This document shows, in pieces, positions 47,544 through 59,172 of a stretch of 64,000 nucleotides of DNA. Source of the stretch: Limnohabitans sp. Rim28 (lineage in GTDB: Bacteria; Pseudomonadota; Gammaproteobacteria; Burkholderiales; Burkholderiaceae_C); the NCBI RefSeq assembly GCF_000293865.2, contig NZ_ALKN02000007.1, positions 1 through 64,000 on the forward strand. The letters are read 5' to 3'. The position numbers were made by a program, and so were the translations under genes. The notes beneath the pieces are model-generated. The model saw nothing but the letters and a program-made list of their open reading frames with translations. It ran no database searches and was not told where the DNA came from. Position 1 is the first letter of the stretch. Every line of letters starts with the position of its first letter.

Positions 47544-48620
47544 ATGGCCGATTTGTTTGACAACCCCATGGGTTTGTGTGGTTTCGAGTTTGTCGAGTTC
47601 GCTTCCCCCACCCCCAACACCCTGGAGCCGCTGTTCGCGCAGATGGGCTTCTCGCTGGTCGCCAAACACCGCTCCAAAGACGTGGTGCTCTACCGCCAGG
47701 GCGACATCAATTTCATCGTCAACCGCGAGCCCAAAAGCCTGGCCGGTTACTTTGCTGCCGAGCACGGCCCATGTGCTTGTGCGCTGGCGTTTCGGGTGAA
47801 GGATTCGCACAAGGCTTATGCGCGGGCGCTGGAACTGGGTGCGCAGCCGGTGGATGTGCCCACTGGCCCGATGGAGCTGCGCCTGCCCGCCATCAAGGGC
47901 ATTGGCGGCGCGCCCTTGTATTTGATCGACCGCTTTGAAGATGGCAAGAGCATTTACGACATCGACTTTGAATTCATCGATGGCGCAGACCGCCACCCGC
48001 CCGGCCACGGCCTCAAGCTGATCGACCACATGACGCACAACGTCTACAAAGGGCGCATGGCTTACTGGAGCGGCTTTTATGAAAAGCTTTTCAACTTTCA
48101 GGAGATTCGCTACTTTGACATCAAGGGCGAATACACCGGCCTGACCAGCCAGGCCATGATGGCCCCGGACGGCTTGATCCGCATCCCGCTGAACGAAGAG
48201 TCGGGCAAGACCGGTGGCCAGATCGAAGAGTTTTTGATGCAGTTCAACGGCGAGGGTATCCAGCACATCGCCCTGCTCACCGACGACATCCTGAAGAGCG
48301 TGGACGCGCTCCAGATGGCCGGCATCCCGCTCATGACCGCACCCAACGACATTTATTACGAGATGCTGGAAGAGCGCTTGCCTGGCCATGGCGAGCCGGT
48401 GCCCGAGTTGCAAGCGCGCGGCATCTTGATGGACGGCTCCACGGCCAATGGCGAAAAGCGCTTGCTGCTGCAAATCTTCAGCCAAACCCTGCTGGGCCCG
48501 GTGTTCTTTGAGTTCATCCAGCGCAAAGCCGACGAGGGTTTTGGCGAAGGCAACTTCAAGGCGCTGTTTGAAAGCCTGGAGCGCGACCAGATTCGGCGGG
48601 GGGCGATTGCGGTGGAGTGA
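47544..48620 (+). CDS. hppD: 4-hydroxyphenylpyruvate dioxygenase
   Basis: 358 residues of the HPPD family, which converts 4-hydroxyphenylpyruvate to homogentisate in tyrosine catabolism. The three iron ligands lie in [22 protein letters not shown] and VFFEFIQRK, in the order His, His, Glu, and [10 protein letters not shown] is the typical C-terminal block. The ATG at 47544 has CTGGAG upstream. No homogentisate dioxygenase is adjacent. A toxin-antitoxin pair follows. Confidence 0.94.
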
Positions 48621-49876: not shown

Positions 49877-50335
49877 ATGAAACTGAACGTCAACGGTAAA
49901 AACCGCAGCCTCGATGTCGAGCCCGAGATGCCCCTGTTGTGGGCCTTGCGCGATGAGCTTGGCATCCAAGGCCCCAAGTTCGGTTGCGGCATCGCCCAAT
50001 GTGGGTCGTGCACAGTGCTGCTCAATGGCGAGCCGGTGCGCTCTTGTGTTTACCCGGTCTCGGCCTCTGCGGGGCAAAAAGTCATCACCATCGAAGGCCT
50101 GGCCGACAAGGGCCGCTTGCACGCCGTGCAGCAAGCCTGGATCGACCACCAAGTGCCCCAGTGCGGTTATTGCCAAGGCGGGCAGATGCTCGCAGCCGTG
50201 GCCCTGCTCAAGAAAAAGCCCAAACCCACCGACGAAGACATCGATGCCGCCATGACCAACATTTGCCGTTGTGGCACCTATGCACGCATCCGCACCGCCA
50301 TCCACGCCGCTGCCAAGAAAGGGACCCGCGCATGA
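49877..50335 (+). CDS. iorA: 2Fe-2S subunit of an isoquinoline 1-oxidoreductase-type Mo hydroxylase
   Basis: 152 residues from the ATG at 49877. Two [2Fe-2S] centres are visible: a plant-ferredoxin motif [18 protein letters not shown] with the fourth Cys in RSCVYP, and the alpha-helical centre QCGYCQGGQ with NICRCGTY. This is the standard IorA/CoxS-type electron-transfer subunit of the xanthine dehydrogenase family. It has no leader and would be exported with its large partner. The start of a six-gene coupled operon; it overlaps the next gene in an ATGA. Confidence 0.9.
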
Positions 50336-52500
50336 GCACCCCCCATCTGACTTCCGGCATGGACCGCCGCCACTTCTTGAAGATCTCCAGCACCGCCACG
50401 GCGGGCTTGTCGATGGGCTTTTTCGTGCCACAAAGTGCGCAGGCGGCCGCAACGCCCCAGCTCAATGTCTGGGTCGAAATCGAGCCCAACGACACGATTG
50501 TCATCCGCTACGCCCGTGCAGAAATGGGCCAGGGCAGCATGACCTCTGCGCCCATGATGATTGCCGAGGAGTTGGAGGCCGATTGGAAAAAAGTGCGCGT
50601 CGAGTACGCCACGGCGCATGAAAACCTGCGCACCAAACGCGCCTATGGCGACATGGCGTCGGTGGGCAGCCGCACCATCCGCAACTCGCAAGAATATTTG
50701 CGCAAAGCAGGGGCCACCGGGCGCGAGATGCTGATTGCCGCTGCCGCGCAGCAATGGGGCGTGCCAGCCAGCGAGTGCAAAGCCGCGCTCAGCAAGGTCA
50801 CCCACCTGCCCAGCAAGCGTGTGCTCAGCTACGGCAAACTGGCCGCCGCGGCGGCCAAACTGGAAGCCCCCAAAGACGTCAAGCTCAAAGACCCCAAAGC
50901 CTGGACCCTCATCGGCAAGTCCATCCCGCGTGTGGACATCCCCGACATCGTCACCGGCCGTGTGAAGTACGGTATTGACGCACAAGTGCCCGGCATGCTG
51001 CACGCGGCCATTGCGGCTTGCCCGGTGTTCAACGGCACCATCAAAACCATGGACGCCTCCAAGGTGGAAAACCGCAGGGGCATCGTCAAGGTGTTGAACA
51101 TGGGCACCTTTGTGGCCGTGGTGGCCGACAACTGGTGGCGCGCCAAAGAAGCGCTGCGTGATGTGGCGGTGGACTGGGATGTGGGCGAGCACGGTACCTT
51201 GAGCAGCGCCGTCATCATGTCCCACTTCAAAGCCGGTATGGATCAGCCAGAACTGGCGGTGGCCCGCAACGACGGCAACACGGCCGATGCGCTGAGCAAA
51301 GCGGCCAAGGTGGTGGAGGCCGAGTACTTCACACCCTATTTGGCGCACGCCACCATGGAGCCGATGGTGTGTACCGCTTGGTTGCAGGGCGAACAACTCG
51401 ATGTGTGGTGCTCGACGCAAAATCCTGAAGCCACTTTGGCCGTGGCGGCTGCGACAGCGGGCGTGCCACAGGCCAACGTGAAAGTGCACCCCATGCAATT
51501 GGGTGGCGGTCTCGGGCGCAAAAGCCCGCAAGACTTCACACGCCAAGCCGTCGCGATCGCCAAGGCCATGCCCGGCAAGCCCGTCAAAATGCTGTGGTCT
51601 CGCGAAGAAGAAATCCAGCACGGCTTGTACCGCCCGGCCAGTCTGATGCGTTTCAAGGCGGGTTTGAGTGCCACGGGCAAAGCCGAGGCGCTGCACATCC
51701 GTGTCAGTGCCCCATCCATCTTGGCCACCTTGCTGAAACTGCCCTTGCCCAGAGGCGTGGACGGTCAGGCCGTGGCCAGCTTCAACGACCACCCCTATGA
51801 CATCCCCAACACCTTGGTGGACTATGCCCAGCGCAACACCAATGTGCCCGTGGGTTTTTGGCGCACCGTGGGGCATTCACAAAACCCGTTTGGGCGTGAG
51901 TGCTTCATCGACGAGATGGCCCAGGCGGAAGCGCAAGACCCGGTTCAATACCGCTTGGCCATGCTGCCCAACAATGAAAAAGCCAACCGCGACCGTGCCA
52001 TCTTGTTGGCCGTGACCCAAGCAGCCGGGTGGGACAAAAAACCGGCCCCCGGTGTGTTCCGGGGTGTGGCCGCCACCGACGGATATGGCAGCTGGACGGC
52101 TTGTGTGTGCGATGTCTCCATCAACGCCAAAAACGAGGTCAAGATCCACCGCATCGTGATCGGCATTGACCCCGGTTATGCCGTCAACCCCGACAACATC
52201 GTGGCCCAGTTCCAGGGCAGCGTGGTGCACGGTTTGACGGCCATCTTCTGGGGTGAAAACACCATCAAGGATGGGCGTGTGGAGCAATCCAACTTCCACG
52301 ATTACCGCATGATGCGTTTGAACGAAATGCCCAAGGTGGAGGTGGTGATTGCCCCCACGGGCGGCTTCTGGGGCGGGGTGGGCGAGCCGGCCCAAGCGCC
52401 TTTGGCACCGGCGGTGGCCAACGCCATTTCGGCGGCACTCGGCAAACGCATCCGCAGCTTGCCTTTGAAGAACCATGGTTTGACTTTGGCACGCGCATGA
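50332..52500 (+). CDS. iorB: Molybdopterin-binding subunit of an IorB-type Mo hydroxylase
   Basis: 722 residues from the ATG at 50332, a coupling overlap with the small subunit. A Tat signal ([19 protein letters not shown]) directs export of the folded enzyme. [39 protein letters not shown] and the C-terminal [18 protein letters not shown] with its putative catalytic Glu are IorB/aldehyde-oxidase-like signatures. IorAB enzymes hydroxylate N-heterocycles or aldehydes and feed electrons to c-type cytochromes. The actual substrate is unknown. It overlaps soxX (ATGA), which is remarkable. Confidence 0.9.
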
Positions 52501-52913
52501 CGGTGCTGGGCTTGGCAAGGGTGTGGGCCTTGGTGTTCAGCGCTGGCTGGGGCTGGGCCGCAGCGCAAACGCCTGTGGCCCTTCAAGCCGGCTCGCCAGA
52601 GCGGGGCAAGGCCTTGCTCTTGCAAAGGCAAGACAGCGGTTGTGTGCTGTGCCATCAAGTGCAGGGTTTGCCTGCAGGTGGTGCACTCGGCCCGTCTTTG
52701 GTCGGTTTGCCCGAGCGCAGCACCAAAGACCAAGCCCGCGAGCGCATCGCCGATGCCCGGCGCTTCAACCCGCAAACCATCATGCCCGCCTATTTGAGTA
52801 CCGAGGGTTTGAACAAGGTGGCGAGCCCTTACAAGGGGCAAACCATTTTGACGGCGCAGGGGCTTGAAGACATCTTGAGTTACTTGTTTTTGCCCAGCAA
52901 GGCCACGCCATGA
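52497..52913 (+). CDS. soxX: SoxX-like monohaem cytochrome c
   Basis: 138 residues. A signal peptide ends near WAAAQ; the haem site CVLCH is at residues 49-53, and the distal Met is in NPQTIMPAYL. GGALGPSLVGLPERS and LTAQGLEDILSYLF are SoxX signatures. In the classical Sox system SoxX pairs with SoxA to load thiosulfate on SoxY. It is translationally coupled on both sides (iorB and soxY) by ATGA overlaps. Confidence 0.9.
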   Translation: MTVLGLARVWALVFSAGWGWAAAQTPVALQAGSPERGKALLLQRQDSGCVLCHQVQGLPAGGALGPSLVGLPERSTKDQARERIADARRFNPQTIMPAYLSTEGLNKVASPYKGQTILTAQGLEDILSYLFLPSKATP

Positions 52914-53395
52914 AGTGGCCCACATTGACCCGTCGCGAGGGCTTGCGGCAGACGCTGCGGGCCGGTCTTTATGGGCTGGCAGTTCAGCTGTGGCCCAGCC
53001 GCGCCCAAGACATGGCATCGGGCCAGTTGTTGAGCTTGGCGCAGATGATGGGGCCCCTGACCCAAGGCGCTCGCTTGTTACAACAAGACGTGAAGATCGT
53101 GGCCCCTGTGTTGGCCGACAACGGGACTTTGGTGCCTGTCACGGTGCAGGTGCAAAGCCCCATGACGCCCCAAGACCATGTGACGCATCTGTACCTGTTG
53201 TCTCAGCGCAATCCGGTGACCCAAATGGCGGTCTTCCATTTGGGGCCGTGGAACGGACGCGCCGAAATCAGCACACGCCTGCGCTTGGCGGGCACCCAGC
53301 AAGTGGTCGCTTTGGCGCGCCTGTCCAGTGGCGAGTTTCGTTATGGCCAGATGGAAATCATCGTCACCGAGTCGGCTTGCGTCGACGCCTCATGA
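52910..53395 (+). CDS. soxY: SoxY-like sulfur-carrier protein with altered C-terminal arm
   Basis: 161 residues. Twin-Arg-like leader TRREGLRQTLRAGLYGLAVQ, then an Ig-like SoxY domain (VKIVAPVLADNGTLVPVTVQ, HLYLLSQRNPVTQMAVFHLG). Classical SoxY ends in Gly-Gly-Cys-Gly-Gly, whose Cys carries the sulfur substrate. Here the end is IIVTESACVDAS: one Cys remains five residues from the end but all flanking glycines are gone. It may still be a carrier with changed specificity, or a non-carrier scaffold. Coupled to soxX and soxZ. Confidence 0.82.
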   Translation: MKWPTLTRREGLRQTLRAGLYGLAVQLWPSRAQDMASGQLLSLAQMMGPLTQGARLLQQDVKIVAPVLADNGTLVPVTVQVQSPMTPQDHVTHLYLLSQRNPVTQMAVFHLGPWNGRAEISTRLRLAGTQQVVALARLSSGEFRYGQMEIIVTESACVDAS

Positions 53396-53733
53396 CCATG
53401 GCATTTGCACGCATCCAATGGCCTGAACGCGTCTTGGCGGGGGATGTGGTCAAAGTGCGTCTGCTGGTGCAACACCCCATGGATACGGGGTACTTGCAAG
53501 ACCTGTTGGGCAAATTGGTGCCGCGCAATGTGATCCGGTCATTGACATGCACCTGGGGCCAGCAAGAGGTGTTCCGTGTGGAGCCATCGTCGGGGATCTC
53601 GGCCAACCCTTTGTTTGAATTTTTTGTGCGGGCAGAACAAACGGCCGAGATGCATGTGGCGTGGATCGATGACCGGGGTGTCAAAGGCCAGTTGCGGCAA
53701 ATGTTGCCGGTTTTGCCCAAGAGCAGCCCCTGA
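53392..53733 (+). CDS. soxZ: SoxZ-like partner of SoxY
   Basis: 113 residues from the ATG at 53392 overlapping the soxY stop. VRLLVQHPMDTGY, VPRNVIRSLTCTWGQQEVFRVE, GISANPLFEFFVRAEQ and MHVAWIDDRG are SoxZ signatures. There is no signal peptide; SoxZ normally crosses with SoxY through the latter's Tat leader. It ends four bases before soxA. Confidence 0.88.
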   Translation: MTMAFARIQWPERVLAGDVVKVRLLVQHPMDTGYLQDLLGKLVPRNVIRSLTCTWGQQEVFRVEPSSGISANPLFEFFVRAEQTAEMHVAWIDDRGVKGQLRQMLPVLPKSSP

Positions 53734-53737
53734 GCGC

Positions 53738-54595
53738 ATGAGCAGCAGAGCGTTCGCATCGGAGCCCGCAGCGTGGTGTGTGCGCACCGTGCTCCAGTTG
53801 TGCTGGCTGGTTTTCATGCTGATCGCGTTGTGGTCGGTGAGTGGGTACGCCGCTTCGCAGACGGCAGCGCCACCCGCACGCAGCTTGCCTTTGTCGCAGC
53901 TCAAATCGGGCCTGCATTATTCGGGCAAGGATGTGCAAGCCTTGCAGGCCGACGAATTTGCCAACCCCGCCCAGCTGTGGCTCAGCCAAGGCGCGCAAGC
54001 TTGGGGCCAGCCCAGTGCCGCGAACGGCAAATCGTGCGTGAGTTGCCACGGCGCAGTGGCCACCAGCATGAAAGGCGTCGCCACGCGTTACCCCGCCATC
54101 GATGCCGCCAGTGGGCGCCTGTTCAACCTCGAAGACCGCATCCACCAATGCACCACGCGCCATCAGCAAGCACCCGCACTCGCGCCCGAATCGGATGCCT
54201 TGCTGGGCTTGACCTTGCTGGTGACGCAGGCCTCCAAAGGCATGCCCTTGCGGGTGGACATTGGCGGTGCGGCGCGCGGCCACTGGCAAGCGGGGGCGAC
54301 ATTGTTTTCTCAACGCCAAGGCCAAATGAATTTGTCGTGCGCCCAATGCCATGACCACAATTTTGGGCAACGCCTGTTCACCGACCTGCTGAGCCAAGGC
54401 CAGCCCAATGGCTACCCGGTGTACCGTTTGGAATGGCAAAAACCGGGATCGCTGGAGCGGCGTTTGCGCAGTTGCTATGCCGGTATTCGCGCGGAAACCC
54501 CGCCTTGGGGTGCTTTGGAGATGCGGCAACTGGCGCTGTACCTGATGTGGCGCGGTGAGGGCTTGCCCATCGAGGTGCCGGCTGTGCGCAAGTGA
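53738..54595 (+). CDS. soxA: SoxA-like dihaem cytochrome c
   Basis: 285 residues from the ATG at 53738. A hydrophobic leader (VLQLCWLVFMLIALWSVSGYA) is followed by two CxxCH sites, CVSCH near residue 100 and CAQCH near 201, plus the conserved RSCYAGIRAE Cys (near 245) that ligates the active-site haem in SoxA. LFNLEDRIHQCTTRHQQ is also typical. With SoxX it should form the SoxXA cytochrome. The last codons and stop lie in a perfect 24-bp direct repeat (54578-54601), copied at 57271-57294. No soxB or soxCD is present. Confidence 0.9.
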   Translation: MSSRAFASEPAAWCVRTVLQLCWLVFMLIALWSVSGYAASQTAAPPARSLPLSQLKSGLHYSGKDVQALQADEFANPAQLWLSQGAQAWGQPSAANGKSCVSCHGAVATSMKGVATRYPAIDAASGRLFNLEDRIHQCTTRHQQAPALAPESDALLGLTLLVTQASKGMPLRVDIGGAARGHWQAGATLFSQRQGQMNLSCAQCHDHNFGQRLFTDLLSQGQPNGYPVYRLEWQKPGSLERRLRSCYAGIRAETPPWGALEMRQLALYLMWRGEGLPIEVPAVRK

Positions 54596-54601
54596 TCAAG
54601 C
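54578..54601. repeat. 24-bp direct repeat, left copy (island boundary)
   Basis: This copy begins CCGGCTGTGC and ends TGATCAAGC. It contains the last soxA codons and stop and, on the other strand, the brnA stop. An identical copy is at 57271-57294 next to the recQ stop. The pair brackets a 2.7-kb block of accessory genes. Confidence 0.9.
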
Positions 54602-54895
54602 CGCGACGCGCTTTCGCGTTGTCGTTCTTGGACGACCCGTCAAATTTCGCTCCACCTCCATCCGCAATGCAGCATTGATGCGCGACTGATAACCAGCCCC
54701 TTTCGACTTGAAGAACTCCAAAATATCAGCATCCAAACGAAGAGAGGTGAGCACCTTCGTGGGCGCAGCTTGAGGCCCGCGTCCACGCTTGAGCACCGGC
54801 GCACCCAGCATGTCCTCAGTCCATGCGGGATTGTCAGGATCGTTGACCTTAGCCGAGGGTTTCTTTGGCAACTTGGCGGTAGTAGCGAGCTTCAT
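54596..54895 (-). CDS. brnA: BrnA-type antitoxin
   Basis: 99 residues. The N-terminal half is unstructured and basic (KLATTAKLPKKPSAKV); the conserved core DNPAWTEDMLG, TKVLTSLRLDADILEFFKSKGAGYQSRINAALR is the BrnA ribbon-helix-helix. BrnA neutralises BrnT and represses the operon. The gene is intact, while its brnT partner is broken, so it is effectively an orphan antitoxin. Its stop lies in the island-boundary repeat. Confidence 0.87.
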   Translation of the reverse strand: MKLATTAKLPKKPSAKVNDPDNPAWTEDMLGAPVLKRGRGPQAAPTKVLTSLRLDADILEFFKSKGAGYQSRINAALRMEVERNLTGRPRTTTRKRVAA

Positions 54896-55016
54896 GTTTT
54901 TCTGCCTTTCGCAGCGATATCACGTGAGCCCCTCTCGGGCGCTCGGTATAAACCAACGAAGTCAAGCCCGTGTTCTTGATGTTCAGCTTGCGCTTTGGCT
55001 CGTGCCATGTGAGCAT
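54849..55016 (-). pseudogene. brnT: brnT toxin remnant (internal deletion and frameshift)
   Basis: A 55-codon frame beginning MLTWHEPKRKLNIK and ending SLVYTERPRGAHVISLRKA... matches the start and end of BrnT, but the centre of about 40 residues is missing. The motif HGLDFV that should follow NIK is found in the neighbouring frame, pointing to a lost base at the front edge as well. BrnT is an RNase-type toxin of about 90 residues; this product cannot fold normally. A dyad (ATCTAC/GTAGAC) near 55027-55045 is a candidate old operator. Confidence 0.72.
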
Positions 55017-57270: not shown

Positions 57271-57294
57271 CCGGCTGTGCGCAAGTGATCAAGC
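57271..57294. repeat. 24-bp direct repeat, right copy (island boundary)
   Basis: Identical to 54578-54601. It carries a second copy of the last soxA codons and stop, and overlaps the recQ stop codon (57289-57291). Joining the flanks at one copy would put soxA and recQ convergent with overlapping stops. Confidence 0.9.
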
Positions 57295-59172
57295 TGCCCC
57301 GTTGCACACCCGCAGCACTTGCGGGCCATAGGCCTCGAGCTTCTTGACGCCCAGGCCGCTGATGCCTTGCAGCTGGACCAGGCTTTGGGGTGCGGCCTCG
57401 GCAATGGCGGCCAGCGTCGCATCGTGGAAGATGACATACGCGGGCAGGTTGTGTTCTTTGGCCACTTCGGCGCGCCAGGCCTTGAGGTTGATGTAGCGCA
57501 CCATCGCGTCTTGCCCCAGGTTGGCGGCGGCGGGGGATGGGGCGCTGCGGCTGCGCGTGCGTTTGTCGGCGCGTTGGCTGGTGCTCTCGCGCAGCTGCAC
57601 CGGTACATCGCCCTTCAGCACGGCGCGCGAGCCTTCGGTCAGGTGCAGGGTGCTGAAGCCTTCTTCGGTGTGCACATGCAGCGCGCCAATGGCGATCAGC
57701 TGGCGCATCACGGCGCGCAGTTGCTGCTCGCTGTACTCGGCCCCCACACCAAAGGTGCTGATGCTCTCGTGGCCGCGTTGCGCCACTTTCTCGGTTTTTT
57801 TGCCGCGCACGATGTCCATGGTGTGCGCTGCGCCAAAGCTGTGGCCGCTGGCCTGGTGGCAGCGGTACACGGTGGACAGCAGTTTGCGCGCCGCATCGGT
57901 GCCGTCCCACACTTCGGGCGGGTTCAGGCAGTTGTCGCAGTTGCCGCAATAGGGCATGTACACGCCTGCCCCGGTGTCCGTTTGTCCGGGGTAGATTTCG
58001 TCGAAATATTTCAGCAGGCGCACGCGTCGGCAGTCGGTGGCCTCGGCCAAACCCAGCAGGGCGTCGAGCTTGCCGCGCATGACCTGTTTGAACTCTTCGC
58101 CCGCCGGGCTTTCGTCGATCATGCGGCGCTGGTTCACCACATCTTGCAGGCCATAGGCCATCCACGCGTCCGACGCCAGCCCATCGCGCCCGGCGCGCCC
58201 GGTCTCTTGGTAATAGCCTTCGATGTTTTTGGGCATGTCCAAGTGCGCCACAAAGCGCACATCGGGTTTGTCGATGCCCATGCCGAACGCGATGGTGGCC
58301 ACCATCACCACGCCCTCTTCGCGCAAAAACTCGTTCTGGTGGCGCTGGCGCATCTCGGGGGGCAGCCCCGCGTGATAAGGCAGCGCATGGACGCCCGCCT
58401 CGCACAGCATGGCCGCAATCTCTTCCACCCGTTTGCGCGATTGGCAATACACCACGCCCGCGGCTTCGGGGTGGTCGCGCTCAATGAAGCGCAGCAGCTG
58501 GGTGCTGGCTTCTTTTTTCTCAACGATGGTGTAACGGATGTTGGGCCGGTCAAAGCTGCTGATGAACAGCTGGGCGCTTTGCAGTTGCAGCCGCTCGATG
58601 ATGTCGGCGCGCGTCAGCGCATCGGCCGTGGCCGTGAGCGCCACACGCGGCACGCTGGGGTAGCGCTCGTGCAGCACCGTCAGGCCCCGGTATTCGGGCC
58701 TGAAGTCGTGGCCCCACTGGCTCACGCAATGCGCTTCGTCGATGGCAAACAGGCTGAGCAGGCCGCGCTCTTGCAGCGAATCCATCTGCGCCAAAAAACG
58801 GGCATTGGTCACGCGCTCGGGTGCGGCATAGAGCAGTGTGATTTCGCCGCGCAACAAGCGTCGTTCTATGTCAGATGCTTCTTCGCTCGTCAGGGTGGAG
58901 TTCAAAAAAGCGGCGTTCACGCCCGCCTCGTGCAGCGCGCCCACCTGGTCGTGCATCAGCGCGATCAGCGGCGAGACCACCACCGTGATGCCGTGGCCAG
59001 CCCGCTGGCGTGCAATGGCCGGAATTTGGTAGCACAGCGACTTGCCCCCGCCCGTGGGCATGAGCACCAGCGCATCGCCCCCGGCGGCCACATGGTCAAT
59101 GATGGCCTGCTGCGGTCCGCGAAAGGCGTCGTAGCCAAAGACTTCGCGCAGGATGGGGAGGTGGGGGGACAC
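57289..59172 (-). CDS. recQ: ATP-dependent DNA helicase RecQ
   Basis: 627 residues, standard for RecQ. Walker [13 protein letters not shown] is near 40-50, the DExH box [20 protein letters not shown] near 145, and GRAGRDG the motif VI Arg finger. The zinc-binding RQC part is seen in [12 protein letters not shown] and YCGNCDNCL, and a C-terminal HRDC domain covers the last ~80 residues. It unwinds recombination and fork intermediates. It is convergent with soxA across the accessory island. Confidence 0.95.

Follow-up and report, generated by a model that had tools for sequence, protein, structure and literature searches.

A conserved operon joining an IorAB-type molybdenum hydroxylase to SoxXYZA, with a SoxY paralogue that lacks GGCGG

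Described Sox-type systems and the six-gene operon

Textbooks present SoxYZ as the carrier of inorganic sulfur, and in the canonical Sox system (SoxXA, SoxYZ, SoxB and SoxCD) the arm of SoxY reaches into the molybdenum enzyme SoxCD. Here we describe an operon of Limnohabitans sp. Rim28 in which genes for SoxX, SoxY, SoxZ and SoxA follow those for an IorAB-type molybdenum hydroxylase. It occupies positions 49877..54595 of a 64,000-nucleotide stretch of DNA, referred to below as the window (NCBI RefSeq assembly GCF_000293865.2, contig NZ_ALKN02000007.1, positions 1 to 64,000 of the forward strand). The operon resembles canonical Sox in the haem motifs of SoxXA, the active-site cysteine of SoxA, the SoxYZ fold, the arm cysteine and the presence of a molybdenum enzyme beside the carrier. 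It differs in that its SoxY lacks the GGCGG motif, its locus holds neither SoxB nor SoxCD and its molybdenum enzyme belongs to the xanthine-oxidase family. For IorA and IorB alike, the nearest enzyme of solved structure is the aldehyde dehydrogenase 8gy3, which we take to have a cytochrome subunit and for which we know of no Sox carrier.

Other described systems share part of this composition. A quinoprotein-associated SoxYZ-like carrier (TIGR04557) also pairs a SoxYZ-type carrier with a non-sulfur periplasmic dehydrogenase; it is unlike the operon in its fused SoxYZ, its pyrroloquinoline quinone enzyme and its SoxH-like zinc hydrolase, and the available part of the paper suggests a maturation role, reports little phenotype in transposon screens and does not mention SoxXA (PMC12997753). 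In the operon soxY and soxZ are separate genes, and their products reach only 56 and 50 of the 140 bits of the TIGR04557 cut-off. SoxYZ beside flavocytochrome c in SAR324 is likewise an incomplete Sox set next to another redox enzyme, but no link to iorAB is mentioned in the available part of that paper (PMC4782131). For Polynucleobacter, a third, separate four-gene ‘SOX’ cluster (Pnuc_1154-1157) was drawn in a 2012 paper, whose available text says that the strain holds SOX genes also found in Bradyrhizobium (PMC3308952). This cluster is probably the XYZA part of the module described here; in the same available text iorAB and the SoxY arm go unmentioned, and the main text contains neither ‘soxY’ nor ‘xanthine dehydrogenase’. 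An earlier reading of the window from its letters (the original prediction) knew of no described pathway of such composition, and our literature search agrees, having found no description among the matches listed. The same holds for the link to IorAB, the changed arm and the spread of the association; the database name of the SoxY paralogue and, probably, the XYZA part in Polynucleobacter were already known.

All six genes lie on the forward strand. The first, iorA (49877..50335), encodes the [2Fe-2S] subunit of the molybdenum hydroxylase (Pfam Fer2 and Fer2_2), and its nearest solved chain is 8gy3_B, the small subunit of the aldehyde dehydrogenase (168 bits). The molybdopterin-binding catalytic subunit is encoded by iorB (50332..52500; Pfam MoCoBD_1 and MoCoBD_2), which has the GEP glutamate and, by sequence reading, the twin-arginine signal DRRHFLK; its nearest solved chain is 8gy3_C (215 bits, residues 10-713), the next best reaching only 82 bits. 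Profile matches assign both subunits to the xanthine-oxidase family of molybdenum enzymes. The product of soxX (52497..52913) is the monohaem cytochrome c of SoxXA, with CVLCH, an MP motif, a match to 1h31_B and 62.5 bits against TIGR04485 (cut-off 61). The soxY paralogue (52910..53395) has a twin-arginine-like start, a SoxY core and the arm cysteine; its partner is encoded by soxZ (53392..53733; TIGR04490, 80.7 bits, cut-off 76). Last comes soxA (53738..54595), for a dihaem SoxA with the active-site region RRLRSC (TIGR04484, 201.7 bits, cut-off 110), which aligns with 1h31_A at 159 bits across both haem sites, including both CxxCH motifs and both further cysteines.

The original prediction described a translationally coupled operon, and its coordinates, its four ATGA overlaps and the exactly 4-base spacing between soxZ and soxA are confirmed, with all six genes intact. 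The junction spacings (-4, -4, -4, -4 and +4) are identical in all 11 close relatives compared, drawn from loci L095-L108 after exclusion of L099, L102 and L103, in which contig ends cut the operon; at the soxY/soxZ junction the start is CTG or TTG in four of the 11. Median dN/dS per gene among close relatives ranges from 0.05 (iorB) to 0.18 (soxY), a sign of purifying selection. Because the junctions are kept in relatives and dN/dS is low, the operon is more than a chance arrangement, and we regard it as real. Judging by the twin-arginine-like signals of IorB and SoxY and by SoxX and SoxA, which resemble secreted c-type cytochromes, the whole set should act in the periplasm.

The SoxY paralogue and its association with IorAB

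The operon SoxY ends in VTESACVDAS, so that the GGCGG of the thiosulfate arm is absent, a point overlooked in the original prediction. Its arm cysteine aligns with that of 2ox5_Y, where the alignment stops, and a tail cysteine is present in the 120 best of 683 SoxY homologues. The best NCBIfam match is TIGR04487, ‘SoxY-related AACIE arm protein’ (120.3 bits, below the cut-off of 172), and the true-SoxY profile TIGR04488 gives 86 bits, below its cut-off of 125. As in TIGR04487, a hydrophobic and then an acidic residue come after the arm cysteine of the paralogue; its score and its tail, SACVDAS, set it apart. Both SACxD and AACxE forms occur among the module loci, that of the operon itself being SACVD. 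TIGR04487 is a name without a function, and a literature search on ‘AACIE’ found no Sox paper. The source database names many of these homologues plainly ‘sulfur-oxidizing protein SoxY’; in metagenomics, paralogues labelled SoxY may be miscounted as thiosulfate oxidation, in freshwater Limnohabitans and probably also in Polynucleobacter.

Elsewhere in the same genome (3.41 Mb in 67 contigs, 100% complete by a tool's estimate), contig C13 holds a Sox cluster of the ordinary kind, soxC-soxD-soxY-soxZ-soxA-soxX-soxB, and the SoxY of this cluster has GGCGG. SoxC, SoxY, SoxZ, SoxA, SoxX and SoxB score above their profile cut-offs, and the cytochrome c gene at the place of soxD was named accordingly. 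There is no SoxB within the operon, and the one SoxB match of the genome is that on C13. The original claim that SoxB and SoxCD are lacking is true of the operon and not of the cell. A complete soxBCD set serving the same SoxYZ had been named as grounds for refutation; the set exists, but it uses its own SoxYZ, with GGCGG. In the canonical cluster (locus L003, C13 73492-80200), SoxA has a single CxxCH and a SoxH-like metallohydrolase follows.

The spread of the module was surveyed across 300 genomes of Burkholderiales, the order to which the window belongs. TIGR04487 matches 156 of them at E<=0.001, the weak matches including true and other SoxY; 17 genomes, at 18 places, score above the cut-off, and iorB with soxYZ is in the locus at all 18. 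Sixty of the best matches were examined in stretches of up to 16 kb: 29 loci have iorAB with XYZA, 19 iorAB with YZ, one iorAB with XYZ and one iorB with YZ, and the remainder have XYZA (seven), YZA (two) or YZ (one). No further protein cluster occurs in more than 13 of these loci (antisense frames having been set aside by eye), and the cluster that reaches 13, a TctC-type receptor-like protein, was taken as background. In a scan of named genomes by close alignment, we used the best 80 of 124 loci, mostly from Limnohabitans, other Comamonadaceae and uncultured Burkholderiales. Among them the plain six-gene order is seen in 34 and plain iorAB-YZ in 26; with extra copies included, 38 have iorAB with XYZA and 29 iorAB with YZ, and the others have parts absent or lost at contig ends.

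The association of arm type with neighbours was tabulated for 160 loci collected by likeness to the SoxY paralogue, so that the pattern, though strong, does not come from unbiased sampling. All 134 loci with iorB are without GGCGG, all 134 keep the tail cysteine and none has soxB; GGCGG is found in all 10 loci with soxB, and iorB in none of these; GGCGG is present in three of the other 16 and absent in 13. This split (134/10/3/13) stands with corrected canonical SoxY and SoxZ queries. Among the 13 loci without GGCGG, iorB or soxB, two (L077 and L103) are cut by contig ends, and for five the genome has the IorB type elsewhere (L063 in G131, L065 in G169, L070 in G263, L055 in G293 and L091 in G097).

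At the level of the 300 genomes, a noncanonical SoxY with checked tail occurs in 54 (the carrier genomes below), the IorB type (at least 600 bits) in 59 and both in 53 (Fisher p ~7e-51, kinship not taken into account). Tails were checked in the loci, and separately for G125 and G198; the count omits G241 and G211, which have GGCGG, and does not include G142, G299, G072 and G025 (75-79 bits). The single miss, G169, falls below the 600-bit limit, its IorB matches scoring 586 and, where the contig is cut, 508. Some IorB matches have one reported in-frame stop (G143:C29:51474, G157:C158:77232, G152:C1:3400679, G180:C1:296036 and others). The association is found in 54 carrier genomes of the order, from 15 family codes, and in further proteobacteria. 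The prediction that IorAB belongs with SoxXYZA is borne out by this recurrence, and adjacency unique to the strain, which would have told against it, is contradicted by the many genomes in which the survey finds it. Recurring in many proteobacteria, the combination is probably a so far uncharacterised machine for periplasmic oxidation and no accident of gene order.

The operon could instead be an auxiliary branch for thiosulfate or sulfide, using SoxB and SoxCD in common with the canonical cluster. In keeping with this, SoxB is commoner in carrier genomes (39 of 54) than in the other genomes (102 of 246), and SoxA retains the RRxRxC region. However, SoxB has no match (E<=1e-100) in 15 of the 54, some genomes being incomplete, and is absent from five of 18 named carriers (four metagenome-assembled genomes and one isolate); the paralogue has lost GGCGG; and thiosulfate oxidation in B. 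diazoefficiens depends on soxY1 but not on soxY2, according to the available part of the report (PMC5748708). The soxY2 gene is probably this paralogue. We consider an auxiliary branch very improbable.

The search for SoxA succeeded in 51 of 52 carrier genomes: in 18 of 18 named carriers and 33 of 34 further ones, the miss being a genome with a 4 kb module contig. Its presence is unsurprising where XYZA stand together, but in six of the 18 named carriers only YZ is beside iorAB and SoxA is elsewhere in the genome, either in an orphan X-A pair (L175, L176 and L178) or in a second set whose iorAB lies on the opposite strand (L177, L179 and L180). At least two CxxCH motifs and RRxRxC are present in 82 of 82 uncut SoxA copies of the collected loci, whose SoxX keeps CxxCH. 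Because SoxXA is kept when moved, and because the XYZA and YZ forms switch (11 changes on a tree of IorB, including some within the window's own near group), the core is IorAB with SoxYZ, SoxXA being required or useful and its adjacency unnecessary. Five YZ-only genomes without a SoxB match have a SoxXYZA cluster of yet another kind. Loci L228, L229, L231 and L232 hold SoxXYZA without soxB, with a SoxY ending in GGCGT, GGCGE, GGCGVS or GGCAG, in genomes with iorAB-YZ, and represent a further Sox variant, with which L230, its SoxY tail not being resolved, was grouped.

The retention of SoxA, together with the aldehyde dehydrogenase 8gy3 as nearest solved relative, could also mean that SoxXA merely serves IorAB as cytochrome acceptor, with SoxYZ carried along or serving thiosulfate. 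Against this, it is XA and not YZ that leaves the locus, as in the 26 of 80 named loci with plain iorAB-YZ, and the arm cysteine persists in the 120 best homologues, in the 60 Burkholderiales loci and in the 134 loci with iorB. We therefore hold a pure acceptor role to be quite improbable.

A phylum-wide sample gave matches at E<=1e-20 in 82 of 398 genomes. At 20 places in this sample, iorAB occurs with SoxXYZA in eight, seven of which add a gene like that of flavocytochrome-c sulfide dehydrogenase; in two inspected modules this gene follows a small cytochrome-like gene in the interval from iorB to soxX, and the two tested genes match Pfam FCSD_central with 170 and 165 bits. Modules holding the dehydrogenase gene are L182-L188 and L037; in two of them, L187 and L188, soxA is followed by an XdhC-like gene. 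Homologues of the phylum-sample SoxY type are named for Bradyrhizobium.

A proposed periplasmic role

Our preferred interpretation, which we put forward tentatively, is that IorAB and a private SoxXA-SoxYZ carrier form one periplasmic machine, distinct from the thiosulfate-type Sox of the cell, that acts on a compound held on the SoxY cysteine. The operon itself, its conservation, the co-occurrence, the intact haem and carrier-cysteine motifs and the loss of GGCGG are observed; the steps by which the parts would work together are inferred. SoxXA would load the SoxY cysteine oxidatively with a compound of the thiol type. With an acidic tail in place of the glycine tail, the arm of SoxY would then dock into IorB, by analogy with SoxCD, itself a molybdenum enzyme entered by the SoxY arm. 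IorAB would oxidise the tethered group using water, and the electrons could exit via SoxXA or another cytochrome c.

Among the uncut IorBs of the collected loci, the GEP glutamate is present in 129 of 132. A quick tree of IorB was made from 87 rows, to which an initial 157 had been reduced by thinning at 86% identity inside each type; three rows with long branches, which are second copies of an iorB-like gene in L114, L116 and L169, were retained. A single clean clade of sox-linked IorB was rejected: 19 of the 87 rows are unlinked and interspersed, with 13 changes between linked and unlinked labels.

Several points weigh against the proposed machine. Unlinked IorBs lie inside the sox-linked branch, and the linked L086 lies outside the main branch; six of the 59 genomes with the IorB type have no counted noncanonical SoxY. 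Because of these unlinked copies and six genomes, IorAB of this kind can evidently exist without an adjacent carrier. Conversely, G093 has a noncanonical tail, SGCGM, and no such IorB was matched in it; including this genome gives 53 of 55. SoxA detected in SoxB-bearing genomes may be the canonical copy, and the way the 160 loci were collected also counts here. The dispensability of soxY2 for thiosulfate oxidation in B. diazoefficiens would speak for the machine only if soxY2 is the paralogue; Bradyrhizobium does carry the paralogue type. The operon encodes no hydrolase for release of a product, and the contact between IorAB and SoxYZ, the loading and the substrate are at the stage of proposals, as are the organosulfur compounds and heterocycles that the original prediction had in mind.

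The chief rival of a private carrier is maintenance of the enzyme: SoxXA and SoxYZ would carry sulfane sulfur and re-insert the molybdenum sulfido ligand of an exported IorAB, beyond the reach of cytoplasmic XdhC-type proteins. According to the available part of one paper, enzymes of the xanthine-oxidase family need this Mo=S ligand; its insertion takes place on XdhC in the cytoplasm, with a protein persulfide as the source, and on expression in E. coli the degree of sulfuration dropped with aeration (PMC2997495). Maintenance would account for SoxB and SoxCD being dispensable. Several IorABs per genome seem to share one Sox set, the sulfide dehydrogenase is added in seven of the eight phylum-sample modules, and five of the six exceptional genomes without the SoxY paralogue have SoxB, all of which speak for it. 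On the other side, no re-sulfuration of a folded bacterial enzyme was found in the literature examined, many IorAB-type enzymes have no Sox partner nearby, and a stoichiometric operon with two cytochromes would be costly as repair. We judge maintenance rather unlikely. Unlikely too is its boldest form, a periplasmic cofactor care in which SoxXA (with flavocytochrome-c sulfide dehydrogenase in some lineages) would load a dedicated SoxYZ with sulfane sulfur and the arm would restore the sulfido ligand of IorAB, making the Sox carrier a molybdenum-cofactor sulfurase that acts beyond the cytoplasm. The neighbourhood of XdhC does not separate the hypotheses: a gene for it adjoins iorAB in one of 18 unlinked IorB loci and otherwise only in L187 and L188, a count that rests on one XdhC query.

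A widespread SoxY branch without the thiosulfate arm, yet with a carrier cysteine and a molybdenum hydroxylase, would point either to swinging-arm chemistry on other compounds, as in the machine we propose, or to carriers that maintain periplasmic molybdenum enzymes.

Chromosomal setting

The operon is bordered on the left by a gene for an HPPD-like dioxygenase (47547..48620, forward strand; Pfam Glyoxalase_5) and on the right by recQ (57289..59172, reverse strand; Pfam RQC, HRDC and others), both conserved borders outside the system. Among loci L095-L108, the HPPD-like left neighbour is present in 11 of the 12 that reach that far (not in L100, the locus of Limnohabitans planktonicus II-D5, which does carry the operon) and recQ on the right in 12 of 12, as compared by eye. 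The toxin-antitoxin genes between these borders are inconstant: among the 34 loci listed of 49 compared, the HigBA-like pair at 48737-49421 matches only L095, L105 and L117, and the BrnA at 54596-54895 matches only L103. A mobile cassette, as the original prediction of a transferable cluster between toxin-antitoxin modules would have it, was accordingly rejected for Limnohabitans. In its close relatives there the operon is inherited in place, and the toxin-antitoxin genes are local.

Locus L096 (CALQKH020000013.1), from a record titled Akkermansia muciniphila, holds the Limnohabitans operon with its conserved flanks and is probably a mislabelled bin. In the window, positions 54596-55016 of the reverse strand contain the BrnA antitoxin gene, and the short BrnT-like frame that precedes it seems, by eye, to be without its middle.

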